Of a stretch of 64,000 nt of DNA, positions 4,325-61,232 are shown in pieces. Below the pieces are notes generated by a model. That model saw nothing but the letters and a program-made list of their open reading frames with translations, searched no databases and had not been told where the DNA came from. Source of the DNA: Fuscovulum ytuae (lineage in GTDB: Bacteria > Pseudomonadota > Alphaproteobacteria > Rhodobacterales > Rhodobacteraceae); the NCBI RefSeq assembly GCF_029953595.1, contig NZ_CP124535.1, positions 1,272,001-1,336,000 on the forward strand. The letters run 5' to 3'. The translations under genes and the position numbers were made by a program. Position 1 is the stretch's first letter. Each line of letters opens with the position of its first letter.

Positions 4325-4364
4325 TTCGCCTGCCCCCGCCCGACAGCCCCTCACGCCCCATTAA

Positions 4365-4436
4365 GGTTAACGCGCCCCAACCTCAGCGCGCGTGCCCACA
4401 GTTTGCGGCACAAAACCCGGCACAGAACAGGGCACA
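4365..4436 (+). repeat. 72-bp dispersed intergenic element, copy A
   Basis: The element begins GGTTAACG. After a spacer that puts CGTGCC exactly 26 bp from its start, it continues CGTGCCCACAG, TTTGCGGCACAAAACCC, GGCACAGAACAG and GGCACA. The core is three imperfect 12-bp units GGCACAAAACNN. Two more copies exist in the window with the same 26-bp offset. This copy is upstream of xsc, about 40 bp beyond its TauR boxes. It also sits downstream of tauR. The 10-mer TTAAGGTTAA (4361-4370) overlaps its start. No coding function is visible. Confidence 0.8.
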
Positions 4437-4577
4437 GCCCTTGCCCCCTGATGCCGAAAATAAACACAGCGCCCGCAATCACTTGCAACCCGCCCCGCAG
4501 ATTTTCTGTCTGAATGATTTCCTCGGGGGGGCCGGGGGCAAGGCACCCCCGGTCCAACGCCAGCCACCCGTGCCGCC

Positions 4578-6038
4578 TCACCCCTCGCGCATCGCCTGCG
4601 CCACCAGCGCGATCCCGTCCGGGATCTTGCCCACCGGGATCGAACTATAGGCCAGCCGATAGAAGTTCCGCCGCTCCGTGCCGGGGTGAAAGAACACCCG
4701 CCCCGGCTCGATCAGCACGCCCTCCCGCCGCAACCGCAGCGCCAGCGTCTCGGTATCCACTCCCTCCGGCGCCTCCATCCAAAAGGACGACCCGCCAAAT
4801 CCCCCCTGCCCCGCCACCCGCAACCCGTGCAGCGCAATCGCCTCCTCCATCGCCTTGCGCCGCTTGGCGAAGGCCGCCTTCATCCGGTTCACCAACGCAT
4901 CGTAATGTCCCAGCGAAAGAAAATGCGCCGCCGTCCGCTGCAACTGCCCCGGCGGATGGCGCAAGACCTGCGCGCGCAGCGCCCGCGCCTCGCGGATGAA
5001 CGGCTCCGGTCCCACCAGCCAGCCAAGGCGCAGCCCGGGAAAGATCGACTTGGAAAACGACCCCGCATGCACAACCCGCCCCCCGGAATCGAGGCTCTTG
5101 ATCGATGGCGAAACGGGCGTCAGGAAACTCATCTCGAACTCGTAATCATCTTCCACCACAAGGAAATTCCGCTCCTCCGCCGCCCGCAACAGCGCCGTGC
5201 GCCGCGCCACGGGCATGGTGGCATTGGTCGGGCTTTGGTGGCTTGCCGTGGTAAAGACCACATCCACGCCCTCGGGCAGGCTGTCCACCGACAGCCCCCC
5301 CTCATCCACCGCCACCGGCGTCACCCGCGCCCCGGCCTGCGCCACCATCGCGCGGAACCCCGGATAGCCGGGGTTCTCCACCACCGCATGACCGCCGGGC
5401 CGCAACAGGACCTGCGCCGCCAGCCACAGCGCATTCTGCGCGCCCATCGTGACCAGTACCTCCGCAGGCCGCGCCTCAATCCCCCGGCGCGGCAGGATGT
5501 TGCGCAACAGATATTCGATGAGCAGCGGATCATCCCGCTCATAGCGATCCGCCGTCAGCGTCTCGAACTCCCGCCGCCCCAAAGCCTGCAAGGCGCAAAG
5601 CCGCCAATTCTGATGGTCAAACAGCGCAGGGTCCGCCTGCCCATAGATGAAAGGATAGGGATAGGCGCGCCAATCCTCGGGCCGCTCCACCCGCTCCATC
5701 CTTGAAAACCGCCCGGCGCAAAGCGACTCCCAATCCACCGTGCCGGTGGCCTGCGGTGCAGGACGGAATTCCGGCTGCACCGGCACCCCCTCGCTCACGA
5801 AATAGCCCGACCGCCCCCGCGCCGTCAGGTAATCCGCCGCCACCAATTCGGTATAGGCCAGCGTCACGGTGATCCGGCTCACCCCCAGATGCGCCGCCAA
5901 GCCGCGCGACGAGGGCATCTTCTCCCCCGCCCGAAACCGCCCCGTCAGGATGCCATCCGCCACCATCGCACGGATGCGCTGCTGTAGCGTCCCGCTCACC
6001 CCCTCAGCCAGATAGAAACGCTCCACAGGTATCGCCAT
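4578..6038 (-). CDS. tauR: TauR, MocR-type (GntR/aminotransferase fusion) regulator of taurine catabolism
   Basis: A protein of 486 residues. An N-terminal GntR winged helix (about residues 10-80; RAGEKMPSSRGLAAHLGVSR) is joined to a class I aminotransferase-like domain. The PLP-binding lysine is Lys330 in AGSFSKSIFPGLRLGW. This is the MocR architecture, in which the aminotransferase fold senses an effector amine. Neighbours are tpa and xsc, so it is assigned as TauR, which activates these genes with taurine in Rhodobacter capsulatus. The ATG at 6038 has AGGTCC just upstream, and box-like repeats lie immediately before it on the opposite strand, suggesting autoregulation. It lies in tandem with tpa and is separated from it by a strong hairpin. 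Confidence 0.92.
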   Translation of the reverse strand: MAIPVERFYLAEGVSGTLQQRIRAMVADGILTGRFRAGEKMPSSRGLAAHLGVSRITVTLAYTELVAADYLTARGRSGYFVSEGVPVQPEFRPAPQATGTVDWESLCAGRFSRMERVERPEDWRAYPYPFIYGQADPALFDHQNWRLCALQALGRREFETLTADRYERDDPLLIEYLLRNILPRRGIEARPAEVLVTMGAQNALWLAAQVLLRPGGHAVVENPGYPGFRAMVAQAGARVTPVAVDEGGLSVDSLPEGVDVVFTTASHQSPTNATMPVARRTALLRAAEERNFLVVEDDYEFEMSFLTPVSPSIKSLDSGGRVVHAGSFSKSIFPGLRLGWLVGPEPFIREARALRAQVLRHPPGQLQRTAAHFLSLGHYDALVNRMKAAFAKRRKAMEEAIALHGLRVAGQGGFGGSSFWMEAPEGVDTETLALRLRREGVLIEPGRVFFHPGTERRNFYRLAYSSIPVGKIPDGIALVAQAMREG

Positions 6039-6070
6039 CTGGACCTATCCCCCCTTCGGTCTGGCCATAA
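6039..6070 (+). promoter_or_regulatory. TauR-like direct repeats abutting the tauR start codon
   Basis: CTGGACCTAT (6039-6048) and CTGGCCATAA (6061-6070) lie on the plus strand 22 bp apart, directly next to the tauR ATG. They point away from tauR. They match the boxes upstream of xsc and tpa in sequence and spacing, but no plus-strand gene follows. Binding here would block tauR transcription, so autorepression is the simplest reading. An alternative is a remnant of an ancestral divergent tauR/tpa promoter. Confidence 0.5.
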
Positions 6071-6158
6071 GGCGCGCCCCTCCGGCGGGCGTCAAGCCCG
6101 GCCTCACCGTGGCATGGGGGGCTGTCTGCCCCCCACGGCCCTGCGGGCCTCCCCCCGA

Positions 6159-6223
6159 GAGTATTTTTCCCAAGATGAAGCCAAAGCCCTGCACCTTGCC
6201 CCTTCATCTTGGCCCAAATACTC
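6159..6223. repeat. Long imperfect inverted repeat with CTTGGCCCAAATACTC arm
   Basis: Arms 6159-6180 and 6202-6223 are complementary over 22 bases with three central mismatches (TTC against GGG) and a 21-base loop. The right arm reads CTTCATCTTGGCCCAAATACTC, followed by six A. The sequence CTTGGCCCAAATACTC recurs at 62595-62610 and, degenerate, at 62474-62489, so this is a dispersed repeat present here as a facing pair. On RNA it would form a strong hairpin. It lies between tauR and tpa, beyond the tpa terminator. Confidence 0.7.
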
Positions 6224-6275
6224 AAAAAATCTCAAAGCCGAAGCGCGGCACGCGCGCAGGCGCCGCAAAAGACAT

Positions 6276-6303
6276 GCGCGGCCCCCTCTTCCGGGGGCCG
6301 CGC
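6276..6303 (-). terminator. Hairpin terminator after tpa
   Basis: A perfect 11-bp stem GCGCGGCCCCC / GGGGGCCGCGC with a six-base loop TCTTCC lies 27 bp downstream of the tpa stop. On the minus strand it is followed by ATGTCTTTTG, a short T-rich tract. It probably reduces read-through from tpa into tauR, making tauR a separate transcription unit. Confidence 0.6.
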
Positions 6304-6329
6304 GCATTAACCTTAACCGCAGTTGAAGA

Positions 6330-7712
6330 TCAGCCGAAAACGCGGGTCAACGCGCTGTCGATGGCCCCGGTGATGTGGTCGATGTCATCCTTCGTGGCAA
6401 TCAGCGCGGGCGACAGGCAGAGCGTGTTGTTCAGCCCCGGCAGGCTGCGGTTCGTGGCCCCGATGATCACGCCCTGCGCCATGCAATCGGCCACCACTGC
6501 CTGCACTTTCTTTTCATCCGCAGGTTCCTTGGTCGCCCGATCCGCCACCAACTCGGCCCCCAGGAACAACCCCTTGCCGCGCACATCCCCGATGACCTTG
6601 TGCTTTTCCATCAGGGCCTGAAGATTGCCAAGGCAATAGTCGCCCATCTTCACCGTGTTCTCCAAAAGCCCTTCCCGCTCGATGATGTTCATATTCTCAA
6701 GCGCCGCCGCAGGCCCGCTCGTGCAGCCCCCGAAGGTGGAAATGTCGCGGAAATAGCTCATCGGATCGGTCGGGTCGTCCTTGAACATCTCAAAGACCCG
6801 CTCGGTCGTCACCGTGCAGGAGATGGCGGCGTAACCAGAGGCCACGCCTTTCGCCATGGTCACGAAATCGGGCTGGATGCCGTAATGCTGATAGCCGAAC
6901 CACGTCCCCGTCCGGCCCACGCCGCAGACAACCTCGTCGATGGCCAGAAGGATATCGTATTTCTTGCAGATTTCCTGCACCCGCTCCCAATACCCCTTCG
7001 GCGGCACGATCACGCCGCCGCCGGCGGTGACGGGTTCAAGGATCAGGCAGCCCACCGTATCGGGGCCCTCGCGCAGGATCACCTCTTCGATGGCATCCGC
7101 GGCGCGCTCGCCATAGTTCTCCACATCCCATTGCTTGCGGTATTCAAGGCAATGCGGCACCCGCACGAAGCCATCCGGGAAGGGGCCATATTGCATCGCC
7201 CGCTGGTCCTGACCGGCGCTGGCCAGTGCCGCGATCGTGGTCCCGTGGTAATCGCGATCCCGATACAGGATCTTCCACTTCTTCCCGCCATGGTGGCGAT
7301 GCGCGATCTGGCGCACCATCTTATAGACCTTCTCATTCGCCTCGGAGCCCGAGTTCGAATAATAGACCCGCGTCATCCCCGGCATCTTCTCGATCAGCCG
7401 CTGGGCAAAGATCGCCCCCGGAACCGACCCCGCCGCGCCTGCGAAATAGTTCATCTTGATCAGCTGGTCGCGCACCGCATTGGCGATGCTTTCCCGGCCA
7501 TAGCCCACATTCACCGTCCAGACCCCGCCCGACACGGCATCGATATGCTCTTTGCCCTTGGCGTCCCAGACCTTCATCCCCTTGCCTTCGACGATCACGC
7601 GCGGATCGACCCCGGCATCATATTGCTTGTGCTGGCTCAGGTGATGCCAGACATGGGCGCGGTCGGCCTCGACCACTTCCGAGATATCGTTGAAACGGTC
7701 CAACCCTTCCAT
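6330..7712 (-). CDS. tpa: Taurine--pyruvate aminotransferase
   Basis: A class III (omega) aminotransferase of 460 residues that converts taurine + pyruvate to sulfoacetaldehyde + alanine. Visible marks are SNSGSEANEKVYKMVRQ for the cofactor phosphate, DYHGTT, LAIDEVVCGVGRTG with Asp259, and the Schiff-base Lys288 in VTMAKGVASGYA. The start ATG at 7712 is preceded by AAAGGA at seven bases. Other omega-aminotransferases share these motifs, but the linkage with tauR and xsc makes Tpa the clear choice. The gene stands alone: a probable TauR-controlled promoter lies upstream and a hairpin terminator downstream. Confidence 0.93.
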   Translation of the reverse strand: MEGLDRFNDISEVVEADRAHVWHHLSQHKQYDAGVDPRVIVEGKGMKVWDAKGKEHIDAVSGGVWTVNVGYGRESIANAVRDQLIKMNYFAGAAGSVPGAIFAQRLIEKMPGMTRVYYSNSGSEANEKVYKMVRQIAHRHHGGKKWKILYRDRDYHGTTIAALASAGQDQRAMQYGPFPDGFVRVPHCLEYRKQWDVENYGERAADAIEEVILREGPDTVGCLILEPVTAGGGVIVPPKGYWERVQEICKKYDILLAIDEVVCGVGRTGTWFGYQHYGIQPDFVTMAKGVASGYAAISCTVTTERVFEMFKDDPTDPMSYFRDISTFGGCTSGPAAALENMNIIEREGLLENTVKMGDYCLGNLQALMEKHKVIGDVRGKGLFLGAELVADRATKEPADEKKVQAVVADCMAQGVIIGATNRSLPGLNNTLCLSPALIATKDDIDHITGAIDSALTRVFG

Positions 7713-7771
7713 GGGTGCGTCCTTTCATGAAATGCAGCAGGCCCCGGCAAAAGGCGGGGGCGATCCCTGCC

Positions 7772-7830
7772 ATAATCCTCTACCGCAGCCCGCGCCGATA
7801 GGGCCAGAGAGAAAGTCGCCATAAGGCCAG
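7772..7830 (-). promoter_or_regulatory. Probable TauR boxes and promoter of tpa
   Basis: Minus-strand direct repeats CTGGCCTTAT (7821-7830) and CTGGCCCTAT (7798-7807) start 23 bp apart. The proximal box is 86 bp from the tpa ATG, close to the 78 bp seen for xsc. A -10-like GATTAT (7772-7777) begins 31 bases from the start of the proximal box, again comparable with xsc. This supports a common TauR activation geometry. The rest of the 514-bp gap to 8227 holds copy B of the 72-bp element and the leader of the next gene. Confidence 0.6.
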
Positions 7831-7858
7831 ATGCGCGCGACTCACCAAGGCATAGATT

Positions 7859-7930
7859 GGTTAATGCCCGATCACCGCGCGCTGCGTGCCCACAGGTTGC
7901 GGCACAAAACCCGGCACAAAACAGGGCACA
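7859..7930 (+). repeat. 72-bp dispersed intergenic element, copy B
   Basis: This copy starts GGTTAATG and has CGTGCCCACAGG exactly 26 bp from its start. It ends with three tandem 12-bp units GGCACAAAACCC, GGCACAAAACAG and GGCACAAATTTT. It differs from copy A at very few positions in the last 46 bp. It lies in the divergent gap between tpa and the DUF475 gene, 28 bp beyond the TauR boxes of tpa, and has the same orientation relative to tpa as copy A has to xsc. Confidence 0.8.
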
Positions 7931-8001
7931 AATTTTTTCACCCCAGTTCGCCCCTTAATCCAGCGTTCGCAAAGGGTTAGGCCGGTCGCACCAAAAATCG
8001 T

Positions 8002-8029
8002 TTGATTTTCATATCCGAAACCGTATGAA
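8002..8029 (+). promoter_or_regulatory. Possible promoter of the DUF475 gene
   Basis: TTGATT (8002-8007) and TATGAA (8024-8029) are separated by 16 bp. They resemble -35 and -10 hexamers for a transcript that would have a leader of nearly 200 bases before the start at 8227. The surrounding sequence is unusually A/T-rich for this genome. Confidence 0.3.
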
Positions 8030-8081
8030 CAACCGCAGCCCCCCTGTCGGGTGGCAAAACCCTGGTGACCGGGCCCCTCTG

Positions 8082-8139
8082 GCGAAAGTCTTGCGACGCT
8101 TTCGCGATGTCGGCACTGCGGAGCAACAGTCGCAAGGAC
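8082..8139 (+). promoter_or_regulatory. Leader with mutually exclusive stems before the DUF475 gene
   Basis: One hairpin is GCGAAAG (8082-8088) with CTTTCGC (8099-8105). Its loop holds CTTGCGAC (8090-8097), which can instead pair over eight continuous bases with GTCGCAAG (8129-8136), extended by two more pairs around a bulged G. The two folds share bases and cannot coexist. This is seen directly in the sequence; a regulatory role is inferred. It does not show the conserved core I would expect of the manganese yybP-ykoY riboswitch that precedes many TerC genes. Confidence 0.4.
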
Positions 8140-8226
8140 CTGACCGACCCGCCGGATCGTCACGGACGCCCCTCGCGCCGCGCCCCCCGCCTGTCTGCCA
8201 TCTCCGCCTCGGCAAGGGATCACCCC

Positions 8227-9300
8227 ATGACCACCCCATCGGCACAGAAATCGACGCTTCAGTATTTCACCTGGGCCTTCATCGTCACCGGCCTTGGCCT
8301 TGCGCTTGGCGCTTGGCTGGGCTGGGCAAGCACCGGCACCCTGTCGGGCATGCTGTCGATCTTCTTCATCTGCTGTGTTCTGGCCGTCCTCGAAATCTCT
8401 CTCTCCTTCGACAACGCAATCGTGAATGCCAACAAACTCAAGGACATGCGCCCCGAATGGCAGCGCGCCTTCCTGACGTGGGGCATCCTCATCGCGGTCT
8501 TCGGGATGCGGATCGTCTTCCCCCTTCTGATCGTGGTTTTGGCCGCCAATATCGGCCCGTGGCAGGCCATCATCCTCGCCTCCACCCAGCCCGAAGAATA
8601 CAGCCGCATCATGCATGAGGCGCATCTTCCCATCGCGGCCTTTGGTGGGGCTTTCCTGATGATGGTGGGACTGACCTATTTCTTCGACGCCGAAAAGGAT
8701 GTCCATTGGGTGCGCTGGTTGGAAGAGAAGGTTGCTGCCACCGCAACCATCCGCGGGGTCGAGGTGGGGGTGGTCCTGATCACCATCCTCCTCTTCTCAA
8801 AATTCCTGCAAGGTGCTGAATCGACGGCCTTTGTTTCCTCGGCCATCTATGGCCTCGTGACCTTCCTCGTGGTGGAAACCGTGGGTGGCCTGCTGGACAA
8901 ATCACAGGAAACCATGTCGGCGGCAGCGAAGGGTGGCCTTGGGGCCTTCCTCTACCTTGAGGTGCTGGATGCCTCTTTCTCTTTCGACGGCGTGATCGGC
9001 GCTTTTGCCTTGTCAAACAACCTCTTCGTCATCGCCATCGGCCTTGGCATCGGGGCGATGTATGTGCGGTCGATGACGATCATGCTGGTCGAAAAGGGCA
9101 CGCTGCAACAATATCGCTATCTCGAACACGGGGCCTTCTACGCCATCCTGATCCTGTCTGTGATCATGTTCAGCCAAACCCTGTTCCACATCCCCGAGGT
9201 CATTACCGGCCTTGGTGGTGCCGCGCTGATCGGCCTGTCGCTCTGGTCCTCCATCCGCTGGAACCGGGGCAATCCCGATGCGGTGGCCGAGGCGCGCTGA
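8227..9300 (+). CDS. DUF475 family TerC-like integral membrane protein
   Basis: A protein of 357 residues with about nine hydrophobic helices. Two related motifs, LEISLSFDNAIVNANKL and EVLDASFSFDGVIGAFALS, each carry the acidic SFDN/SFDG signature of the DUF475/TerC superfamily of putative metal-ion exporters. The two halves suggest an internal repeat. I chose the ATG at 8227 because AAGGGAT precedes it; the in-frame upstream extension to 8065 is open but looks non-conserved. The gene is transcribed alone, with a long structured leader and a hairpin after the stop. TerC relatives help load or export manganese, but the substrate of DUF475 proteins is unknown. Confidence 0.85.
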   Translation: MTTPSAQKSTLQYFTWAFIVTGLGLALGAWLGWASTGTLSGMLSIFFICCVLAVLEISLSFDNAIVNANKLKDMRPEWQRAFLTWGILIAVFGMRIVFPLLIVVLAANIGPWQAIILASTQPEEYSRIMHEAHLPIAAFGGAFLMMVGLTYFFDAEKDVHWVRWLEEKVAATATIRGVEVGVVLITILLFSKFLQGAESTAFVSSAIYGLVTFLVVETVGGLLDKSQETMSAAAKGGLGAFLYLEVLDASFSFDGVIGAFALSNNLFVIAIGLGIGAMYVRSMTIMLVEKGTLQQYRYLEHGAFYAILILSVIMFSQTLFHIPEVITGLGGAALIGLSLWSSIRWNRGNPDAVAEAR

Positions 9301-9323
9301 CCAAACCGATTTGAACCACAAGA

Positions 9324-9350
9324 CCCCGCGAATCCTTGACAGTCGCGGGG
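9324..9350 (+). terminator. Hairpin after the DUF475 gene
   Basis: CCCCGCGA (9324-9331) and TCGCGGGG (9343-9350) form a perfect 8-bp stem with an 11-base loop, 23 bp past the stop. There is no U-tract, so termination strength is uncertain. The loop contains TTGACA (9336-9341), which could instead be the -35 of the thuA promoter. Confidence 0.4.
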
Positions 9351-9369
9351 CGTCCCCCCTACCCCTTCC

Positions 9370-9379
9370 AAAGCGCTTT
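9370..9379 (+). promoter_or_regulatory. AAAGCGCTTT palindrome, possible LacI-type operator
   Basis: A perfect 10-bp palindrome with the central CG of LacI-family operators (pattern AANCGNTT) lies 20 bp before the thuA ATG, between a TTGACA sequence and the ribosome-binding site. ThuA/ThuB genes in rhizobia are under a LacI-type repressor. No such regulator gene is in the window, so the assignment is by pattern only. Confidence 0.3.
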
Positions 9380-9398
9380 CAACGCTTGGGAGGGGTCC

Positions 9399-10184
9399 AT
9401 GTCCATCCGCGTCACAGTCTGGGGCGAAAACGTCCACGAACAGAAGAACCGCATCGTGGCGGGGCTTTATCCCGATGGGATGCACAGCACCATCGCCACC
9501 GCGCTGAACCGCGATCCGGGTGTCACCGCCACCACCGCGACGCTTCAGGAACCCGACCACGGGCTAACGCCTGAACGCCTTGCCGCGACTGATGTGCTGG
9601 TCTGGTGGGGCCATGCCGCGCATGGCGATGTGCAAGATGCCGTCGTCGACCGCGTCTGCGATGCCGTCTGGTCCGGCATGGGGGCGATCTTCCTGCATTC
9701 GGCCCATTTCGCCAAACCTTTCAAGCGCTTGATGGGCAGCCCCTGCAACCTCACCTGGCGCGAGGCGGGCGAACGTGAACGCCTCTGGCTCACCTCTCGC
9801 AACCATCCCATCGCCGCAGGCCTGCCCGACAGTTTCGAGTTGGAGCATGAAGAGATGTATGGCGAACCCTTCGGCGTGCCTGAACCGATGGAAACGGTCT
9901 TCGTCTCGTGGTTCCAAGGGGGCGAGGTGTTCCGCTCCGGCCTCACCTACAAGCGCGGCGCGGGGAATGTGTTCTACTTCCGCCCCGGCCATGAAACCTA
10001 TCCAACGTATCACGACTCGAACGTTCAGCGCGTCATCCTGAACGCGGTGAAATGGGCGCATAACCCCGCCACCCGGATCGCCAATCCCAATGCCGCCCCC
10101 AATGTCCCGGTCGAGGTCGCACCAGAACCCATCACCGAGCGCGGCCCCCGCCTGCATCAGGCCGGCGAAGAGGGGTTCCGCTGA
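9399..10184 (+). CDS. ThuA-like (trehalose utilization family) protein
   Basis: A cytoplasmic protein of 261 residues matching the ThuA-like glutamine-amidotransferase fold: an early beta strand IRVTVWGEN, then VLVWWGHAAHGDV, and GAIFLHSAHFAKPFKRLMG in the conserved histidine region. The end of the fold reads GAGNVFYFRPGHETYPTYH. The ATG at 9399 follows GGGAGGGG, so the upstream TTG extension was rejected. It overlaps the next dehydrogenase gene by TGATG. ThuA proteins accompany sugar-oxidising Gfo/Idh/MocA enzymes in the conversion of disaccharides through keto intermediates. The exact reaction and substrate here are unknown. Confidence 0.85.
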   Translation: MSIRVTVWGENVHEQKNRIVAGLYPDGMHSTIATALNRDPGVTATTATLQEPDHGLTPERLAATDVLVWWGHAAHGDVQDAVVDRVCDAVWSGMGAIFLHSAHFAKPFKRLMGSPCNLTWREAGERERLWLTSRNHPIAAGLPDSFELEHEEMYGEPFGVPEPMETVFVSWFQGGEVFRSGLTYKRGAGNVFYFRPGHETYPTYHDSNVQRVILNAVKWAHNPATRIANPNAAPNVPVEVAPEPITERGPRLHQAGEEGFR

Positions 10185-11242
10185 TGCCCCACCCCATCCG
10201 CCTTCTGATCCTCGGCACCGGAGGAATGGCCGCCAACCATGCGGAACATTTCAGAAAAATCCCCGGCGTGCAGATCGTGGCGGGGGTCGATACCCGCGCC
10301 GAACAGCTCGACGCTTTCGCCGACCGTTTCGCCATTCCCCACCGCTTCACCAGCCTTGACGCCGCGCTGGCATGGGGCGGGTTCGACGCCGTGACCAACG
10401 TCACCCCAGATGCCGCGCATCACCCCACGACCCTGCCCCTCTTGGCCGCAGGCAAGCATGTGCTTTGCGAAAAACCCCTCGCCACGAACGCCGCCCACGC
10501 GCAAGAGATGGCCGATGCCGCCGCCCGCGCGGGCGTGATCGCCATGGTCAACCTCACCTATCGCAACGTCCCCGCCCTGCAAAAGGCCGCGCAGATGGTG
10601 GCCGAAGGCAGCATCGGAACGATCCGGCATTTCGAGGCATCCTATCTGCAAAGCTGGCTCGTGCAGCCCGCTTGGGGCCATTGGGATCGGGAAAGCCAAT
10701 GGCTCTGGCGGCTGTCCACGGCGCATGGATCAAAGGGCGTTCTGGGAGATGTCGGCATCCATATCCTTGATTTTGCAACCTTTGCAGCGGGTCTTGATGT
10801 GGCAGACCTCTCCTGCCGCCTTGCCACATTCGACAAGGCACCGGGGGGCCGGATTGGCGACTATGTCCTTGATGCCAATGACAGCGCCACAATGCAGCTG
10901 CGCCTGACAAATGGTGCACTCGGCACCGTCACAGCCACCCGCTTCGCCACTGGGCATCTGAATGACCTGCGTCTCCGGCTTCATGGTGACAAGGGCGCGC
11001 TGGATGTGTCTTTTGAAAAGGGCAAAAGCCGCCTTTCCGCCTGCCTTTCCCCCGATCTGGAAAGCGCCACATGGCGGCGCGTCGCCTGCCCGCCCGTCCC
11101 CACCGTCTATCGCCGCTTCATCGCCGCGATCCGGGGCGAAGGCCCCGCAATCCCCGATTTCGCCCGCGCCGCGCGCCTGCAACAAATGCTGGACCGAGCC
11201 GAGGCGTCAAATGCCGAAGGCGCCCGCGCCCTGCCGCTCTGA
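10184..11242 (+). CDS. Gfo/Idh/MocA-family NAD(P)-dependent sugar dehydrogenase
   Basis: A protein of 352 residues. The Rossmann fold starts with RLLILGTGGMAANHAEHF. The family signature CEKPLATNAAHAQEM carries the catalytic lysine, and GDVGIHILDFA belongs to the active-site helix of the C-terminal alpha/beta domain. Translation is coupled to the ThuA-like gene (one-base overlap), so the pair probably act on one sugar or polyol, like ThuAB of rhizobia. Whether the substrate is trehalose, sucrose or another sugar cannot be told. A hypothetical gene converges on its 3' end with only two bases between the stops. Confidence 0.88.
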   Translation: MPHPIRLLILGTGGMAANHAEHFRKIPGVQIVAGVDTRAEQLDAFADRFAIPHRFTSLDAALAWGGFDAVTNVTPDAAHHPTTLPLLAAGKHVLCEKPLATNAAHAQEMADAAARAGVIAMVNLTYRNVPALQKAAQMVAEGSIGTIRHFEASYLQSWLVQPAWGHWDRESQWLWRLSTAHGSKGVLGDVGIHILDFATFAAGLDVADLSCRLATFDKAPGGRIGDYVLDANDSATMQLRLTNGALGTVTATRFATGHLNDLRLRLHGDKGALDVSFEKGKSRLSACLSPDLESATWRRVACPPVPTVYRRFIAAIRGEGPAIPDFARAARLQQMLDRAEASNAEGARALPL

Positions 11243-11244
11243 CG

Positions 11245-14233: not shown

Positions 14234-14254
14234 CGGTCCGGCGAAGAAAAGCTC

Positions 14255-14328
14255 TGGAGGCGGGTACCGGAATCGAACCGGTCTTCACGGATTTGCAATC
14301 CGCTGCGTAACCTCTCCGCCAACCCGCC
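14255..14328 (-). tRNA. tRNA-Cys (anticodon GCA)
   Basis: A 74-nt cloverleaf with encoded CCA. The acceptor arms GGCGGGT and ACCCGCC pair perfectly. The anticodon loop TTGCAAA is closed by GCGGA/TCCGT-type pairing, with anticodon GCA at 14294-14296. The T arm contains GGTTCGATTCC. It is the only tRNA in the window. It converges on the dehydratase gene and has its own promoter; the region behind it is the left border of the glycan gene block. Confidence 0.97.
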
Positions 14329-49980: not shown

Positions 49981-49988
49981 GCCCCCGC

Positions 49989-51997: not shown

Positions 51998-53350
51998 ATG
52001 CCGGTTTCGCTTATCGTTCTCGCCGCGGGTCAGGGCACGCGGATGAATTCCGACCTGCCCAAGGTCCTGCATCAGGTGGGGGCGGCCCCGCTGCTGCACC
52101 ACGCGCTTGCCGCAGGCCGCGCGCTGGACCCCGAAGCCACCATCGTCGTCACCGGCCATGGCGCGGAACAGGTGGCGCAATCCGCCCGCGCCTTCGACCC
52201 CGATATCCAGACCGCCCTGCAATCCGAACAGAAGGGCACCGCCCATGCTGTCCTGCAAGCCGCGCCGCTTTTGGAAGGCGTGCCGGGTGATGCTCTTGTC
52301 CTTTATGGCGACACGCCCTTCATCCGCCCCGAAACCCTGCAAGCCATGCGCGACGCCCGCCGTCGTCATGCCGTCGTCGTGCTGGGCTTCCACGCCGCTG
52401 ATCCGGGCCGCTATGGCCGCCTGATCGCCGAAGGCGACACGCTTCACCGCATCGTCGAATGGAAAGACGCAACCGAGGAGGAGCGTGCCGTCACGCTGTG
52501 CAACTCCGGCGTCCTCTGCGCCGACGCGGCGACGCTGATGCGCCTCTGCGCCGCCGTCGGCAATGCCAACGCCTCCGGCGAATATTACCTGCCCGATGTC
52601 GTGGCGCTGGCCCGGGCCGAGGGGCTTTCCGCTGGCCTCATCCTCTGCGACGAATCCGAAACGCTGGGCATCAACACCCGCGCCGAGCTTGCCCGCGCCG
52701 AGGCCGCCTTCCAATCCCGCGCCCGGACCGAGGCGCTGGAAAACGGCGTCACCTTGACCGCGCCGGAAACCGTGTTCTTCGCGCTCGACACCCATATCGG
52801 CCGAGATGCCATCATCGGCCCCAACGTGATCTTCGGCCCCGGCGTCACGATTGAATCAGGGGCCGAGGTGAAGGGCTTCTGCCATCTCGAAGGCTGCCAC
52901 ATCTCACGCGGTGCCACCGTCGGCCCCTTCGCCCGCCTGCGCCCCGGCGCGGAACTGGCCGAAGATGTCCATGTCGGCAATTTCGTGGAAATCAAGAACG
53001 CCATACTCGACGAAGGCGTGAAGGTTGGCCACCTGACCTATCTGGGCGACGCTGATGTCGGAGAGCATACCAATATCGGCGCAGGCACCGTCACCTGCAA
53101 TTATGACGGGGTCATGAAGCACCGCACCAAGATCGGCAAACGCGCCTTCATCGGATCGGACACCATGCTCGTCGCCCCTGTCACGGTGGGCGACGATGCC
53201 CTGACCGGGTCGGGGTCCGTCATCACCGAAGACATCCCCGCCGAGGCCGTGGCACTGGGGCGCGCGAAACAGGTCAACAAACTGGGGCTCGCCCCCAAAT
53301 TGTTCGAAAAGTTAAAGTCTATAAAAGCCAACAAGGCAAAAGGGCAGTAA
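51998..53350 (+). CDS. glmU: Bifunctional UDP-N-acetylglucosamine pyrophosphorylase / glucosamine-1-phosphate N-acetyltransferase
   Basis: A protein of 450 residues. The N-terminal uridyltransferase domain has VLAAGQGTRMNSDLPKVLH and LVLYGDTPFI. The C-terminal left-handed beta-helix (about 245-440) contains HIGRDAIIGPNVIFGPGV, GNFVEIKNAILDEGVKVGHL and NIGAGTVTCNYDG. It produces UDP-GlcNAc for peptidoglycan and LPS. ATG 51998 is preceded by AAGGAAAGGGG. glmS begins two bases after its stop, so they form an operon. Confidence 0.97.
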   Translation: MPVSLIVLAAGQGTRMNSDLPKVLHQVGAAPLLHHALAAGRALDPEATIVVTGHGAEQVAQSARAFDPDIQTALQSEQKGTAHAVLQAAPLLEGVPGDALVLYGDTPFIRPETLQAMRDARRRHAVVVLGFHAADPGRYGRLIAEGDTLHRIVEWKDATEEERAVTLCNSGVLCADAATLMRLCAAVGNANASGEYYLPDVVALARAEGLSAGLILCDESETLGINTRAELARAEAAFQSRARTEALENGVTLTAPETVFFALDTHIGRDAIIGPNVIFGPGVTIESGAEVKGFCHLEGCHISRGATVGPFARLRPGAELAEDVHVGNFVEIKNAILDEGVKVGHLTYLGDADVGEHTNIGAGTVTCNYDGVMKHRTKIGKRAFIGSDTMLVAPVTVGDDALTGSGSVITEDIPAEAVALGRAKQVNKLGLAPKLFEKLKSIKANKAKGQ

Positions 53351-53352
53351 AA

Positions 53353-55173: not shown

Positions 55174-55850
55174 TCCCCACCGAAACAGCACTCGCCGAAC
55201 TCCACGCGCTGGCCGATCCGGCAAAGGCCGCCGAGATGGCGGCCTATCACAAGGCCCCGCGCCCCTATCTCGGCATCCCCGTTCCCCTGATCGAGGAACG
55301 GGTCGCCGACTGGCGCGCGGCCCTCTCTGTGGGAGACCGCACCGCCCTTGCCGCCGCGCTATGGGAGACGGATATCCACGAAGCCCGCGTCGCCGCCGCC
55401 AAACTCCTGACCCAAGCCCGACTGCGTCCCGATGGCCCCGCATGGGACTTGATCTGCCATTGGACCCAAAGCTTCGACGCATGGGCCTTGGCCGATCACG
55501 CCACCATCGCTGGGCAGAAACGCCTGCTCGCCGATCCCGCGCGGATCGACACGGTCGAAGACTGGACGCAAAGCCCCAATATGTGGACGCGCCGTGCGGC
55601 CCTTGTCATCACCCTGCCCTATGCCAAGATGAACCACCCCAAAGCGGGCGATCTTGCCATCCGCGACCGCGCCCTTGCTTGGGCCGAAACCTATATCCAA
55701 GACCGCGACTGGTTCATCCAGAAGGCCATCGCATGGTGGCTGCGTGACCTTTCGAAACACGACGCCGCCCGCACCCGCGCCTTCCTCGACGGCCCCGGCA
55801 CCGCATTGAAATCCTTCGCCCGCAAAGAAGCCGCGCGCCATCTGGCCTGA
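55170..55850 (+). CDS. DNA alkylation repair (AlkD-like) protein
   Basis: A protein of 226 residues built of helical HEAT-like repeats. Recognisable AlkD family stretches are AYHKAPRPYLGIPVPLIEE, ETDIHEARVAAAKLL, WTQSFDAWALADH, WTRRAALVITLPYAK, and DRDWFIQKAIAWWLRDLSKH. AlkD proteins excise bulky alkylated bases by a non-flipping mechanism. ATG 55170 overlaps the glmS stop (ATGA). A longer frame starting inside glmS was rejected. Confidence 0.88.
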   Translation: MIPTETALAELHALADPAKAAEMAAYHKAPRPYLGIPVPLIEERVADWRAALSVGDRTALAAALWETDIHEARVAAAKLLTQARLRPDGPAWDLICHWTQSFDAWALADHATIAGQKRLLADPARIDTVEDWTQSPNMWTRRAALVITLPYAKMNHPKAGDLAIRDRALAWAETYIQDRDWFIQKAIAWWLRDLSKHDAARTRAFLDGPGTALKSFARKEAARHLA

Positions 55851-55876
55851 CCGCCCGCAACAGGAAAGAGGCCAGC

Positions 55877-57124
55877 ATGACCTTCGCAGGCATCGACTTC
55901 GGCACCTCCAACTCCACCCTCGGCCTTGCCGACGCGGGCGGCGCACGCCTGCTGCCGCTGGAAGGCGATGAGGTCACCCTCCCCTCCGCCGTCTTTTTCC
56001 ACAGCGATGATCCGCAGGTCGAATTTGGCCGCGCCGCGCTGGCGGCCTATCTGGAAGGCGAAGATGGCCGCCTCCTGCGCGGCCTGAAATCCACCCTCGG
56101 CTCTGGCCTCATCAACGACCGCACCGCCATCGGCGCGCGGGCCATCTCGTTCCGCGAGGTTCTCGCCCGCTTCATCGGGCATCTCCGCCACAGGCTTGAC
56201 GCCGCCACCCCCGGCATCGACCGCGCCGTCTTCGGCCGCCCCGTCCATTTCGTCGATGATGACCCCGCAGGCGACGCTGCCGCACAATCGGCACTCAAGG
56301 AAATCGGCCATGCCTGCGGCTTTCGCCATATCGAATTCCAATATGAACCCGTCGCAGCCGCGCTGCATTATGAACAAGGCCTGACGACCGAGGAACTCGT
56401 CCTCGTCTTCGATATCGGCGGCGGCACCTCCGACCTTTCCATCCTCCGCCTGTCGCCCAGCCGCGCCCGCGCAGCGGACCGATCTGCCGATATCCTCGCC
56501 ACCGGTGGCATCCGTGTCGGCGGCACCGATTTCGACCGCCTCCTGTCGCTGGCCGAGGCGATGCCGCATCTCGGCTATCTCTCCACTTCGAAACAGGGCG
56601 CAGGCATCCTTCCCCGCCATTACTGGCAGGACATGGCCACATGGCACCGCATCAACGCGCTTTATGCCCCGCGCGTCATGGCCGATCTCAAAGGTCTGCG
56701 GCACGAGGCAGACCGGCCCGACCTCATCGACCGCATGATCCACGCCGTCACCCACCGCCAAGGCCACGCCATCGCGATCGAGGTGGAGCGGGCCAAGATC
56801 GCCCTCTCCGACACCGACGCCACGCGCCTGATGCTCGCCCCCCTGACCACAGGCCCCAACCCGATGATCCGGCGCGAAACCTTTGACGCCGCCCTTTCGG
56901 ACCCCGTCACCCGCCTTCGCACGCTGATCAACAGCACCCTCACAACGGCAGGCCTTCCCTCCGACCGCATCGCCACTGTCTTCCTGACGGGCGGCTCGGC
57001 CCAGCTTCCCCTCCTCCGCGCGATGGTGGCCGACGCCCTGCCCCAAGCCCGCCTCGCCACCGGAGATATGCTGGGATCGGTCGGCACCGGCCTTGCGCTG
57101 GACGCCCGCCGCCGCTTCGCCTGA
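55877..57124 (+). CDS. Short Hsp70-family (YegD-like) chaperone/ATPase
   Basis: A protein of 415 residues covering only the actin-like ATPase domain. Phosphate 1 motif GIDFGTSNSTLGLAD, phosphate 2 VFDIGGGTSDLSIL, connect YEPVAAALHYEQG and the adenosine motif VFLTGGSAQLPLLRAMV. The Hsp70 substrate-binding domain and lid are missing, as in E. coli YegD. It follows the AlkD-like gene by 26 bp with GAAAGAGG before the ATG. Function of this group is unknown; co-expression with repair and wall-precursor genes may be accidental. Confidence 0.88.
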   Translation: MTFAGIDFGTSNSTLGLADAGGARLLPLEGDEVTLPSAVFFHSDDPQVEFGRAALAAYLEGEDGRLLRGLKSTLGSGLINDRTAIGARAISFREVLARFIGHLRHRLDAATPGIDRAVFGRPVHFVDDDPAGDAAAQSALKEIGHACGFRHIEFQYEPVAAALHYEQGLTTEELVLVFDIGGGTSDLSILRLSPSRARAADRSADILATGGIRVGGTDFDRLLSLAEAMPHLGYLSTSKQGAGILPRHYWQDMATWHRINALYAPRVMADLKGLRHEADRPDLIDRMIHAVTHRQGHAIAIEVERAKIALSDTDATRLMLAPLTTGPNPMIRRETFDAALSDPVTRLRTLINSTLTTAGLPSDRIATVFLTGGSAQLPLLRAMVADALPQARLATGDMLGSVGTGLALDARRRFA

Positions 57125-57177
57125 TCCCGCTTGCGCCCAATCCCACCTGCGCTAGGCTGCGTGGAAAGGAGACCCCC

Positions 57178-58344
57178 ATGCCCGTCAAGAACCGCTTTGC
57201 CGAACTCCTCCCCGAAATCACCGCATGGCGGCGCGATTTCCACGAACACCCAGAGCTTCTTTTTGACGTCCACCGCACCGCCGCCCGCGTGGCTGACCTG
57301 CTGCGCGCGTTCGGCTGCGATGAGGTGGTGACAGGCATCGGCCGCACTGGCGTTGTCGGCGTCATCAAGGGCAAGACCGATACATCCGGCCGCGTTGTCG
57401 GCCTGCGCGCCGATATGGACGCGCTGCCGATCATCGAACAGACCGGCGTCCCCTATGCCTCCAAAACCCCCGGCAAGATGCATGCCTGCGGCCATGACGG
57501 CCACACCGCCATGCTGCTCGGTGCCGCCAAATACCTCTGCGAAACCCGCAACTTCGACGGCACCACCGTCGTCATCTTCCAACCCGCCGAAGAAGGCGGC
57601 GGCGGCGGGCGCGAGATGGTCGCCGACGGCATGATGGATCGCTGGGGCATCCAAGAGGTTTACGGCATGCACAACATGCCCGGCATCCCCGTGGGCCATT
57701 TCGCCATCCGCAAGGGCGCGCTGATGGCCGCCGCCGACCAGTTCGAAATCACGGTGACGGGCAAAGGCGGCCATGCCGCGAAACCCCATGACTGCGTGGA
57801 TACCACCGTCGTGGCCGCCCATATCATCGTCGCCCTACAAACGATCGCCAGCCGCAACGTGGACCCGCTGAAACAGGTCGTCGTGTCGGTCTGCACCGTG
57901 GAAACCGACAGCACCGCCCACAACGTCATCCCGCAGGTCGTCAAGATGAAGGGCACCGTCCGCACCATGGACCACGCCGTTCAGGATTTCGTTGAACGCC
58001 GCATCTCGGAAATCGTCTCCGGCACCGCCATGGCGCTCGGCGCAACCGCCGCAGTCGCCTATTCCCGCGGCTACCCCGTCACGATCAACGCCGAGGCCAA
58101 CACCGATTACGCGGTCGAGGTCGCGCGCCAAGTCTCTGGCCAAGTCGATCCCGACACCGCCCCCCTCATGGGGGCCGAGGATTTCAGCTTCATGCTGAAC
58201 GAACGCCCCGGGGCCTATATCTTCGTGGGCAATGGCGACACGGCGATGGTCCACCATCCCGCCTATAATTTCGACGACAACGTGATCCCCTTCGGAGCAA
58301 GCTGGTATGCCGGGATGGTAGAGGCGCGGATGCCCGCCGCATGA
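57178..58344 (+). CDS. M20 family amidohydrolase (hippurate hydrolase-like)
   Basis: A protein of 388 residues. The metal site motifs are KMHACGHDGHTAMLLG, the Glu pair in FQPAEEGGGGGREMV, YGMHNMPGIPVGHFAIR, and the C-terminal LMGAEDFSFMLNERPGAYIFVGNG. The dimerisation domain lies in between. These enzymes hydrolyse N-acyl amino acids such as hippurate or indoleacetyl conjugates; the natural substrate is unknown. Ribosome-binding AAAGGAG. Its stop overlaps the DUF1304 start by four bases. Confidence 0.93.
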   Translation: MPVKNRFAELLPEITAWRRDFHEHPELLFDVHRTAARVADLLRAFGCDEVVTGIGRTGVVGVIKGKTDTSGRVVGLRADMDALPIIEQTGVPYASKTPGKMHACGHDGHTAMLLGAAKYLCETRNFDGTTVVIFQPAEEGGGGGREMVADGMMDRWGIQEVYGMHNMPGIPVGHFAIRKGALMAAADQFEITVTGKGGHAAKPHDCVDTTVVAAHIIVALQTIASRNVDPLKQVVVSVCTVETDSTAHNVIPQVVKMKGTVRTMDHAVQDFVERRISEIVSGTAMALGATAAVAYSRGYPVTINAEANTDYAVEVARQVSGQVDPDTAPLMGAEDFSFMLNERPGAYIFVGNGDTAMVHHPAYNFDDNVIPFGASWYAGMVEARMPAA

Positions 58345-58700
58345 TCGCCACCACCCTCACAGCCGCCATCGCCGCGCTGCATGTCTATATTCTGGTGTTG
58401 GAGATGTTCCGCTGGGAACATCCCCGCACCCGCCGCGCCTTTGGCACGACCGAGGATTTCGCAAGGGCCAGCAAGACGCTCGCCGCGAACCAGGGCCTCT
58501 ACAACGGCTTCCTCGCCGCAGGCCTCTTCTGGGCCGTCCTCGAAGGCACCACCACCGATGGCCGCCCCCTCGCCCTTTTCTTCCTGTCCTGCGTTCTGAT
58601 CGCGGGCCTTTACGGTGCGGCGACCGCCAGCCGCCGCATCCTTTTCATCCAGGCGCTCCCCGCCGCGTTCGGCCTTCTCGCGGTCACGCTCAGCGTCTAA
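58341..58700 (+). CDS. DUF1304 membrane protein
   Basis: A protein of 119 residues with four hydrophobic helices. The family pattern includes AALHVYILVLEMFRWEHPR, KTLAANQGLYNGFLAAGLFWA, FFLSCVLIAGLYGAATASR and QALPAAFGLLAV. Function unknown. ATG 58341 overlaps the amidohydrolase stop (ATGA). Its stop overlaps the cydB stop on the other strand by four bases, a tail-to-tail arrangement without room for a separate terminator. Confidence 0.9.
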   Translation: MIATTLTAAIAALHVYILVLEMFRWEHPRTRRAFGTTEDFARASKTLAANQGLYNGFLAAGLFWAVLEGTTTDGRPLALFFLSCVLIAGLYGAATASRRILFIQALPAAFGLLAVTLSV

Positions 58701-59695
58701 TCATAAGACAGCTTGGTGGCCTTCCCGCGAAAGATCACATAGGCCAGCACCGTATAGCCAAGGATCATCGGCAGCACGACCAGCGTGCCGACAAGGATGA
58801 TCGACAGGCTCTCCGTCGCCGCCGCCGCCTCCCAGATCGTCAACTGTTCCGGCACGATATAGGGGTAGAAGCTGTAGGCCATCCCAAAGAAGCCCAGCAC
58901 CATCAGAACCACAGCCCCCACGAAAGGGAACCACGCGAAACTGTCATTCGCCGTCGGCAACCGCCGCAGCGCCAGCCACAGAAGCGCCACCAGCAGCCCC
59001 GACATAAGCGGCAGCGGGGCCAGCGTTACGATCTCGGGGAAACGGAACCACTTGTCGAAAATCCGCTCGCTCACCAAAGGCGTGGCGACGCTTACCGCCC
59101 CCATGCCCAGCACCATCCCCCAGATGCCGCCCTTGGCCCAGTCCACGGCCTTCCGCTGCAAGACCCCATCCGTCTTCAGGATCACCCAGCCCGCCCCGAT
59201 AAAGCTATAGGCCACAGCCAAAGCCCCCGCTGTGCCCAGCGCGAAGGCCACCTTGGGCCATGTCCATTCCAGCCCCATCACATACATGCCCAGCATGAAA
59301 CCCTGCGCCAAGGCCGTCATCAACGACCCCGCCCAGAAGGCCACATCCCAAGGCCGCTTGTGCCCAAGTGGCGCTTTGGCCCGGAATTCGAACGCCACCC
59401 CCCGCAGGATCAACCCGATCAGCATGACCGCCACAGGCAGATAAAGCGCCGTCAGGATATCCCCATGCGCGACCGGGAAGGCCACCAGCAGAATGCCGAT
59501 GGCCAGCACCAGCCATGTCTCATTGGCATCCCAAAACGGCCCGATGGATGCGATCATGCGATCCCGCTCCGCCTCTTCGGCAAAGGGAAACAACAGGCCC
59601 ACCCCAAGGTCGAACCCGTCCAGCACAACATAAAGCAGGATCGACACCCCCATCAGGGCGGCAAAGATCAAGGGCAGCGCAACAGGATCAAACAT
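58697..59695 (-). CDS. cydB: Cytochrome bd ubiquinol oxidase subunit II
   Basis: A protein of 332 residues with about nine helices. Motifs are LLYVVLDGFDLGVGLLFPF, IGPFWDANETWLVLAIG and FEFRAKAPLGHKRPWD, and the end FRGKATKLSYD. The chosen ATG at 59695 is eight bases from GGAG; GTG 59704 and ATG 59701 overlapping the cydA stop are too close to it. CydB completes the bd-type oxidase with CydA. No cydX-like small gene follows. Confidence 0.94.
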   Translation of the reverse strand: MFDPVALPLIFAALMGVSILLYVVLDGFDLGVGLLFPFAEEAERDRMIASIGPFWDANETWLVLAIGILLVAFPVAHGDILTALYLPVAVMLIGLILRGVAFEFRAKAPLGHKRPWDVAFWAGSLMTALAQGFMLGMYVMGLEWTWPKVAFALGTAGALAVAYSFIGAGWVILKTDGVLQRKAVDWAKGGIWGMVLGMGAVSVATPLVSERIFDKWFRFPEIVTLAPLPLMSGLLVALLWLALRRLPTANDSFAWFPFVGAVVLMVLGFFGMAYSFYPYIVPEQLTIWEAAAATESLSIILVGTLVVLPMILGYTVLAYVIFRGKATKLSYD

Positions 59696-59700
59696 CGCCA

Positions 59701-61059
59701 TCACTCCGCCGGTTGCATGCCGGGCGAAGCAACGGGCGCATCATAGCGCCCGCCCTTCCGCGCCAGATGGAAGATCACGCCAACATAGGCCGCCAGCAGC
59801 GCCAGATAGACCGCCACATAGGCAAGCAACGTCGACAGAACCATACCGGACGCGATATCGCCCACCGCCTGCTCTACCGTCAGCACGCCTTGCACCAGCC
59901 ACGGTTGCCGCCCGATCTCGGTCGTGTACCAACCCGCCAAGGTGGCGCCCCATCCGGCAAAGGTCATCCCCGTCAGACCCCAGAGGTAAGGCTTCGGCAT
60001 TCCCTCCACCCCGCGCCGCCACAGCATCCACGCCCCGGCCCAGCTTGCCACCAGCATGAGCATCCCGATCCCGACCATGATGCGGAAGGACCAGAAGACA
60101 GGCGCCACCGGCGGATGCAGCACCGTGCCATCCTCCGCCACGAAATCATTCAACCCCGGCACCACGCCCGCAGGGTCATGCTTCAGGATGACAGACGCCA
60201 TCGACGGGATGCCGATCTCCATCGCATTTTCCCGCGCCGCCTCATCCGGCAGGGCGAACAGCAGCAGCGGCACATGGGATTGCGTCTCCCAATTCCCCTC
60301 CATCGCCGCCACCTTGGCCGGCTGATGCTCCAGCGTGTTCAGACCATGCATGTCACCCGCAAGGATCTGGATCGGGATCAGCACCGCGCCAAGGATCACA
60401 CCAAACCGCAGCCCCGTCGCCACTTCGGGCGCACGATCCCCCCGCAACCACCGATAGGCCGACAGCCCCGCAATCAGAAAGGCCACCGTCAACCCGCTCG
60501 CAAGCAGCATATGCGACAGACGGTAAGGCATCGACGGATTGAAGATGATCGCCCCCCAATCCACCGCATAGACAATGCCATCCCGCAGCTCATGCCCCAC
60601 GGGCGTGTGCATCCAGCTGTTCAGGACCAGAATCCAGAAGGCGCTCATCGTCGTGCCAAAGGCCACAAGAAAGGTCGCCAGCGTATGCAACCACCCCGGC
60701 ACCCGGCTTGCCCCGAACAGCATGATCCCAAGAAAGACCGCCTCAAGGAAAAAGGCTGTCAGCACCTCATAGGCAAGCAGCGGCCCCGCCACATTCCCCA
60801 CCGTCTCCATAAAGCCCGGCCAATTCGTGCCGAACTGGAAAGACATGGTGATCCCCGACACCACGCCCAGCGCGAAAGACAGCGCAAAGACCTTCACCCA
60901 GAACAGGTAAAGGTCCATCCACTTCCGCTCCCCCGTCCGGTTGAAGCGCAGCTTGAAAAACAGAAGGACCCATCCCAGCGCGATGGTGATCGTGGGAAAC
61001 AGGATGTGGAAGGAAATATTCGCCGCAAACTGGATGCGGGACAGCAAAAGCGTATCCAT
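59701..61059 (-). CDS. cydA: Cytochrome bd ubiquinol oxidase subunit I (short Q-loop, CioA-type)
   Basis: A protein of 452 residues. Haem ligands are in NISFHILFPTITIALG (b595 axial His), MPYRLSHMLLASG (b558 His), and the acidic AYEVLTAFFLEAVFLG. The quinol region holds WYTTEIGRQPWLVQGVL. It lacks the long C-terminal Q-loop insert of E. coli CydA (522 residues), so it is the short, often cyanide-insensitive CIO type. Oxidises quinol with high oxygen affinity and complements complex I. Copy C of the 72-bp element lies about 100 bp upstream. Confidence 0.95.
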   Translation of the reverse strand: MDTLLLSRIQFAANISFHILFPTITIALGWVLLFFKLRFNRTGERKWMDLYLFWVKVFALSFALGVVSGITMSFQFGTNWPGFMETVGNVAGPLLAYEVLTAFFLEAVFLGIMLFGASRVPGWLHTLATFLVAFGTTMSAFWILVLNSWMHTPVGHELRDGIVYAVDWGAIIFNPSMPYRLSHMLLASGLTVAFLIAGLSAYRWLRGDRAPEVATGLRFGVILGAVLIPIQILAGDMHGLNTLEHQPAKVAAMEGNWETQSHVPLLLFALPDEAARENAMEIGIPSMASVILKHDPAGVVPGLNDFVAEDGTVLHPPVAPVFWSFRIMVGIGMLMLVASWAGAWMLWRRGVEGMPKPYLWGLTGMTFAGWGATLAGWYTTEIGRQPWLVQGVLTVEQAVGDIASGMVLSTLLAYVAVYLALLAAYVGVIFHLARKGGRYDAPVASPGMQPAE

Positions 61060-61160
61060 GACTCACCTTTCAGGTTCACCCGCAAGATAGGGCACCACCC
61101 CCGCGATACGAGGGGTCTGCGACCGGCTGCCCCATGCGACAGGCTGTCATTTCGGCGTCA

Positions 61161-61232
61161 GGTTAACGAAAGGCTGCCACAGCGTGCGTGGCCACAGAAT
61201 GCGGCACAAAACTCGGCACAAAACAGGGCACA
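61161..61232 (+). repeat. 72-bp dispersed intergenic element, copy C
   Basis: Starts GGTTAACG, with CGTGGCCACAG exactly 26 bp from its start, then GCGGCACAAAACTC, GGCACAAAACAG and GGCACA. It agrees with copies A and B at almost every position of the last 46 bp. It lies between moaA and cydA, with the same orientation to cydA as the other copies have to xsc and tpa. After the core it shares TTTTCAC with copy B. Confidence 0.8.

Follow-up and report, generated by a model that had tools for sequence, protein, structure and literature searches.

The window examined here, a 64,000-nucleotide stretch of the Fuscovulum ytuae genome (NZ_CP124535.1, positions 1,272,001 to 1,336,000), carries three copies of an element built of a TTAA-containing box and a head-to-tail array of short boxes. 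All three are on the plus strand. In copy 1 the TTAA box (GGTTAACG) is located at 4365..4372, 26 bp ahead of the first array box, and the conserved core at 4389..4442 (56.9 bits with the model R2); the core comprises a degenerate first box, CGTGCCCACAG, at 4391..4401 and GGCACA boxes 2–4, with a 12-bp period, at 4407..4436. Copy 2 has its TTAA box (GGTTAATG) at 7859..7866, the core at 7874..7931 (R2 match of 60.7 bits), the first box CGTGCCCACAG at 7885..7895 and boxes 2–4, with the same sequence and period, at 7901..7930. In copy 3 the TTAA box (GGTTAACG) occupies 61161..61168, the core 61185..61239 (51.4 bits), the first box CGTGGCCACAG 61187..61197 and GGCACA boxes 2–4, again at 12 bp, 61203..61232. 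With the filters off, R2 finds only these three copies in the window, the next best match having an E-value of 0.13. Genes next to the copies are xsc, a MocR-like regulator gene (just below the cut-off), an aminotransferase gene, moaA, the gene of cytochrome bd subunit I (below the cut-off) and, preceded by a terC RNA, a membrane protein gene. That RNA (RF03067) is found at 8061-8121 (+), 130 bp from copy 2 and 5' of the membrane protein gene (8227-9300).

The copies exist as an earlier note on this DNA had located them: GGTTAA[CT]G begins at 4365, 7859 and 61161, and CGTG[CG]CCACAG follows 26 bp downstream, start to start, in each of the three. The same note counted three 12-bp units per copy. 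Three GGCACA boxes are indeed present at 12 bp, but there are only two full 12-bp units (the second one of copy 1 is GGCACAGAACAG); after the third box the sequences of the window copies are unrelated, and the element ends there. The two-box pattern, with at most three mismatches, matches 7 times in the window vs 0.68 expected, and the first-box pattern 3 times vs 0.13 expected.

The window trio belongs to a large family, as the genome-wide search for further copies proposed beforehand has shown. A sequence-only profile from 27 copies (E≤0.001) finds 100 copies in the genome under study (G000; G104, G295–G310 and similar handles denote compared genomes), 98 on the 3.9-Mb chromosome and two on a 169-kb replicon. 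The two-box pattern with at most one mismatch has 129 matches in the whole genome, and the reversed pattern has none. Genes were called with our own codon-usage script, and 96 of the 100 copies are clear of called open reading frames (ORFs), the other four overlapping one. In the logo of 98 copies, from which two of low profile score were dropped, the core is about 58 bp long and consists of four head-to-tail CACA/ACA boxes with a 12-bp period, worded GTRNNNACAG, then KGCACA, GGCACA and GGCACA. The GC-rich lead-in is less conserved, and conservation falls sharply past the last box, where CCGTT forms a weak tail. The 27 seed copies came from a pattern containing AAAAC, hence their uniform spacer is no evidence, and spacer conservation was judged from the 98-copy logo instead. 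TTAA is present at most 60 bp upstream in 63/98 copies vs 71/1074 control intergenic 60-mers, and its start is mostly 24, 29–30 or 35 bp from CGTG. The gap of 26 bp is exact in the window and, over the family, one of a few registers (GGTTAA at 26 bp occurs in 13/98 copies).

The constant spacing had been taken as a sign of either structure or protein contact. One copy, tested in both senses both as DNA and as RNA, folds no better than its shuffles, and the same holds for a second copy tested as RNA in one sense. For 45 copies from six genus members the consensus structure is nearly empty and 0/4 predicted pairs covary, and Rfam has no family over the window copies at the gathering score. An RNA or single-stranded DNA element was rejected on these folds, the covariation and the Rfam scan, and the suggestion of a processed RNA appears unsupported at the level of sequence. 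Of the two explanations of the spacing, structure finds no backing, and protein contact is favoured indirectly. The 12-bp head-to-tail array is retained across species.

We next turn to the genes around the element. In the window the copies do lie upstream of minus-strand genes, as was claimed; for most copies of the genome this is not the case. Of the 96 ORF-free copies, 43 lie in convergent and 12 in divergent gaps, and in the tandem gaps the TGTGCC strand runs against both neighbours for 21 copies and with both for 20. Counted as distinct gaps, 40/93 gaps with the element are convergent, compared with 25/314 of those that lack it and measure 80 bp or more (odds ratio 8.7, p 1e-13). The co-directional gaps are split almost evenly, the element being aligned with the genes in 20 and opposed to them in 21. 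Twenty random draws from the 62 gene starts that face an element gave 19 distinct genes. Fifteen of these 19 have a Pfam family at 1e-10, and the families are unrelated; the sampled neighbours include DNA polymerase beta clamp, nucleoside diphosphate kinase, histidinol dehydrogenase, a semialdehyde dehydrogenase, transporters, a helicase and a ParA/MipZ-type ATPase. The element might be the operator of a large regulon, in a TauR-like reading, since the window copies sit 5' of xsc, the aminotransferase gene and the cytochrome bd subunit I gene, and the MocR-like regulator gene adjoins copy 1. However, convergent gaps are enriched, the element has no preferred direction relative to the genes and the families of the sampled neighbours, which share no function, are unrelated. 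The idea of a regulator site thus goes unsupported, and we consider the operator very improbable. The gene of the ParA/MinD-family ATPase, which has a MipZ match (L212:5139-5765, +), lies 71 bp from the copy at C1:197983; it is one of 19 sampled neighbours, and its position is possibly due to chance.

The direction of the element follows the replication strand. It agrees with the local GC skew at third codon positions in 95/98 chromosomal copies (p 1e-24 vs 50:50), with the intergenic skew in 92/98, with the overall local skew in 94/98 and with the net gene strand in 49/98. In two of the three third-position exceptions the skew is near zero, and in one it is -0.134. The sign of the element flips at ~2.30 Mb, where the cumulative GC skew has its minimum over the sampled loci, and which is therefore the likely origin. 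Among the relatives, 25/26 copies of G104 with a locus (56 copies were found) agree with the skew, as do 21/21 copies on the 1.09-Mb contig C11 of G301, among the matches listed. Random orientation had been named beforehand as the result that would speak for a neutral repeat. The opposite is seen: orientation is far from random, and it is tied to the replication strand and not to gene starts. On the two clear arms 66/79 copies agree with the replichore, and orientation is predicted better by local strand history than by present arm position. The two copies of the 169-kb replicon (C3:16933-16999 and 153700-153764) have opposite orientations, each equal to the local skew, as if the pair were polar around the replicon's own origin.

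Skew opposite to the arm is found on C1 of G000 in segments at ~1.43-1.46, 1.71-1.76, 1.96-1.98, 2.83-2.91 and 3.06-3.11 Mb, and it is also reversed in G301 at 1.96-1.98, 2.91 and 3.06-3.11 Mb. These segments may be old inversions with undecayed skew, or something else. Outside the copies, short octamers have an extreme bias to the leading strand in the sampled loci of G000, e.g., TGGCGAGC (41:0), GAGCGGTT (54:1) and GAGAAGGG (43:4). They are candidates for the ordinary FtsK-orienting polar sequences (KOPS) or architecture-imparting sequences (AIMS) of the genus.

The copies are also evenly spaced along the chromosome, with a spacing of ~43 kb. For 91 merged sites the circular coefficient of variation (CV) is 0.634, and none of 100,000 uniform random sets is as low; under random placement the CV has a mean of 0.984 and a minimum of 0.668. 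Seven close pairs, with centres 115-159 bp apart, were merged for this test. Their cores are 0.72-0.98 identical vs 0.76 for random copies. Plain tandem duplication of these pairs was rejected: the flanks, compared without gaps, are 0.33-0.78 identical upstream and 0.15-0.60 downstream, and therefore the pairs are at most old duplications.

In related species the element occupies the same places. R2 was scanned against 19 genus genomes with at most 150 candidates scored per genome, and gives 116 matches in G299, 101 in G301, 100 in G000, 99 in G303, 77 in G295, 56 in G104, 55 in G305, 40 in G310, 22 in G302, 17 in G298 and 6 in G297. The low counts in some relatives may reflect distance from the model. 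All 20 best-scoring copies of G303 are at places orthologous to G000 copies, with most flanking blocks 81-89% identical. On C11 of G301, 21/21 copies, among the matches listed, lie at most 70 bp from the projected G000 place and have the projected direction. The best-scoring loci fall into the G000 element's own gap in 10/10 cases for G301, 10/10 for G295 and 6/10 for G299; a few of the ten best-scoring loci of G301 coincide with C11 copies. In G104, five gaps were found with both flanking genes, and the four short ones all carry the element (4/4, judged by eye). The notion of a selfish repeat, in its simple form, loses its support because the copies occupy orthologous places in relatives.

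While the places are kept, the wording changes. G104 has CTGCACN where G000 has CGGCACA. At 14 variable core positions, orthologues and other copies are nearly equally similar to the G000 copies: 0.829 vs 0.799 in G303 (18 pairs, p 0.055), 0.493 vs 0.444 in G301 (20 pairs, p 0.0008), 0.480 vs 0.473 in G299 (7 pairs, p 0.49) and 0.278 vs 0.241 in G295 (9 pairs, p 0.20). Flank identity separates orthologues from other copies clearly in G303 (0.71 vs 0.37) and G301 (0.66 vs 0.32), little in G295 (0.43 vs 0.35) and not at all in G299 (0.34 vs 0.36). The contrast between core and flank rests on G303 and G301, because the memory of the flanks is kept there. The loci of G303, G299 and G295 and the first loci of G301 are the best matches to the G000 model, which favours G000-like wording. 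Two of the 20 G303 loci were dropped, since each has two possible G000 copies; the 20 G301 pairs are 16 of the 21 C11 copies and four others; and one of the seven G299 pairs (L347) is doubtful, mapping ~0.8 kb from the G000 copy. Core wording follows species more than place. Wording that changes in concert at unlinked, orthologous sites is compatible with a binding protein that co-evolves with them, with copying from site to site, or with the two combined.

In G296, which has no R2 match, 400 kb of sequence show no clear family of repeats with a 12-bp period, and the leading 6-mers are not of the CACA type. Pairs at 12 bp number 69 there (vs 67 at 17 bp), 224 in G104 and 193 in G000. Both orthologous gaps that were inspected in G296 are without the element; one of them holds TGTGCATCGGTTGTGCAT, that is, two TGTGCAT boxes 11 bp apart.

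DNA uptake sequences, too, have species-specific versions at conserved places, and those of Neisseriaceae reportedly come in dialects. The element might thus be a transfer or uptake bias site, for Neisseria-like uptake or for directional packaging by a gene transfer agent, spread and made uniform by drive: the preferred version would be transferred more often and would recombine at the same places. However, uptake sequences are short and occur in thousands per genome, and the element differs from them in length, in its copy number of only about 100 and in its replication polarity. An uptake site predicts neither the lock to the replication strand nor the even spacing, and we regard it as quite unlikely.

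We suggest that the element acts as a directional landmark, a polar site that organises the chromosome and is recognised by a putative protein; we judge this reading about equally likely to be right or wrong. Even spacing, preference for convergent gaps and polarity with the replication strand point to chromosome organisation rather than to gene control. Cooperative protein binding offers the best explanation for a rigid head-to-tail array in which no fold is detected and which stays at orthologous places. A putative multimeric, sequence-specific DNA-binding protein would fill the boxes head to tail and so give the complex a direction. A fork or a translocase that has left the origin along the right arm would encounter the TGTGCC repeats first, ACGCAGCG next and the TTAA box last. 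The complex could serve as a directional landmark for something that moves along the arm or folds it, e.g., a segregation translocase or a loop-extruding machine, and the species-specific wording would result from a protein that co-evolves with its own sites. Conserved places, one-way orientation and co-changing wording together suggest a chromosome-organising system that has not been described; in the published literature, largely that outside subscription journals, we found no description of such an element. The full proposal, a genus-level polarity system in which a dedicated multimeric protein and about 100 four-box arrays mark the direction of replication with a code that co-changes by species, is put forward tentatively, as somewhat short of an even chance. 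If true, it would be a chromosome landmark of a new kind: sparse, long, evenly spaced, orthologous, one-way and changing in concert. Known polar sequences are either short and present in thousands, as AIMS, or few, as Ter. It would also raise the questions of which protein reads the array, what the inversion of one site does and how 100 unlinked sites change together.

Several results weigh against the polar chromosome-organising site. No binding protein for the array was found. Eleven of the 19 genus genomes match R2 and eight give no match, therefore the element is not needed for life in the genus. The null model for the spacing is uniform placement over the chromosome, including genes. There is no rise toward the terminus, the quartiles of distance from the presumed origin holding 28, 26, 22 and 22 copies. 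On the clear arms 13/79 copies oppose the replichore, mostly in the reversed-skew segments; these 13 are as strong as the other 66 (mean position weight matrix score 70.3 vs 67.9, p 0.80), and several of the opposed segments are common to G000 and G301. Full-strength flips shared with G301 mean that the opposite orientation has long been tolerated. Finally, the last spacer, AAACAG, is common to 82-92/98 G000 copies per position, and this uniformity is not obviously explained by protein contact alone.

These last observations bear on the main rival, in which the copies descend from a mobile element that long ago inserted preferentially on one strand, e.g., into the single-stranded lagging-strand template, and were later kept and homogenised by conversion between copies. 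The orientation would then be a fossil of the insertion. This rival accounts for full-strength, skew-matching elements in the reversed-skew segments and for the shared last spacer, and the seven close pairs also speak for it. On the other side, the tested copies do not fold, the positions are orthologous, and insertion alone does not predict even spacing. We know of no efficient conversion among dispersed 58-bp copies. Plasmid and phage records have no match to one 67-nt consensus-like query. In IMG/VR, among the best 80 of at least 120 stretches and a further 43/43, no R2 match (E≤0.001) reaches the first 14 model positions, and the pattern matches cover the repeat part only. An ancient insertion of this type is unlikely in our view, though it deserves serious weight. 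A mobile element now carried by plasmids, phages or viruses was rejected on the same 67-nt query and IMG/VR matches.

Composition is the other point that weighs against the polar chromosome-organising site. Cores drawn from the background place 86-87% on the leading strand by strand composition alone, i.e., 84-85/98, and outside the copies the octamer TTTGTGCC shows a 19:1 preference for the leading strand; therefore part of the orientation bias may be compositional. In that case each site could have evolved separately, through point mutations selected for some non-polar function, with the bias following from skewed composition. The background model and TTTGTGCC argue for this, and TGTGCCG outside the copies is likewise biased to the leading strand (86:43). 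However, 95/98 is observed, the composition model biases short seeds only 53-67%, and 58-bp cores of such information content would not be expected to arise by chance. We consider single origins of this kind highly doubtful.

We compared the element with known kinds of chromosomal sequences. KOPS, which are bound by the FtsK gamma domain, and AIMS resemble it in the leading-strand bias across the whole chromosome and in being common to related taxa. AIMS are octamers, with 7119 copies of 27 of them in E. coli MG1655, and their density and bias increase toward the terminus (PMC5993296). The element, in contrast, is ~58-100 bp long, has ~100 copies and shows no rise in density to the terminus. 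Like Tus-Ter, it forms oriented, non-palindromic chromosomal sites. Ter sites are few in number, whereas the element has ~100 copies chromosome-wide and a four-box array. Ter sites are permissive to forks leaving the origin; among the element's copies on the clear arms, 13/79 face the other way at full strength. A Tus homologue (PF05472) was found in 0/19 genus genomes, with the E. coli control positive, and Tus-Ter was ruled out by its absence from 19/19.

Repetitive extragenic palindromes with their bacterial interspersed mosaic elements (REP/BIME) and miniature inverted-repeat transposable elements (MITEs) are, like the element, dispersed intergenic repeats. They differ from it in fold, in place, in replication-strand orientation and in even spacing. 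The palindrome or terminal inverted repeats of REP and MITEs are missing in the two folds and in the 45-copy consensus structure, and instead of differing positions between species, orthologous ones are found for 20/20 copies of G303 and 21/21 on C11 of G301. Thus KOPS/AIMS, Tus-Ter, REP/MITE, uptake sequences and membership in Rfam each fail a tested feature. We class the element as a new kind, since each of the known kinds examined falls short in some defining property; its function as a landmark is presumed.

Outside the genus, element-like sequences may be in weak excess. The two-box pattern GCKGCACANNNNGCKGCACA has 40 matches in 35 other genera vs 15 control matches. Among 295 family genomes, with 17 candidates scored per genome and counts that are lower bounds, R2 matches G000 and G104 with at least 17 each, and six other genomes with at least 1-2 each, in the repeat part only. 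Among other bacteria, in the best 80 of at least 120 stretches from genome_contigs, core matches (model position 14 or earlier covered, at least 39 bits) are confined to contigs of Clear-D3 and of Rhodobacter sp. CACIA14H1, one contig of the latter having two copies.

Arm-type sites of tyrosine recombinases are head-to-tail direct repeats of ~12 bp, and in this they are similar to the array. Other genera of the family have two or three TGTGCAGC repeats with a 12-bp period immediately 5' of a gene for an integrase-type recombinase. The difference is that this recombinase is only distantly matched, in 3/19 genus genomes, and on this ground it was rejected as the binder of the array. Examples of the TGTGCAGC repeats are L443:1501-1520, with the gene at 1561-2829, and those in L399, L447 and L398/L441. 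They precede the integrase gene in G013, G022 and G254, and in G051 (L398/L441) its 5' part. The recombinase is an integrase by PHROGs, with a DUF6538 N-terminus above the cut-off in 2/3. Similar repeats in L439, L459, L465 and L466 have no such recombinase gene within the 3-kb locus. The TGTGCAGC repeats are possible arm-type sites. The window also contains a tRNA gene at 14258-14328 (-).

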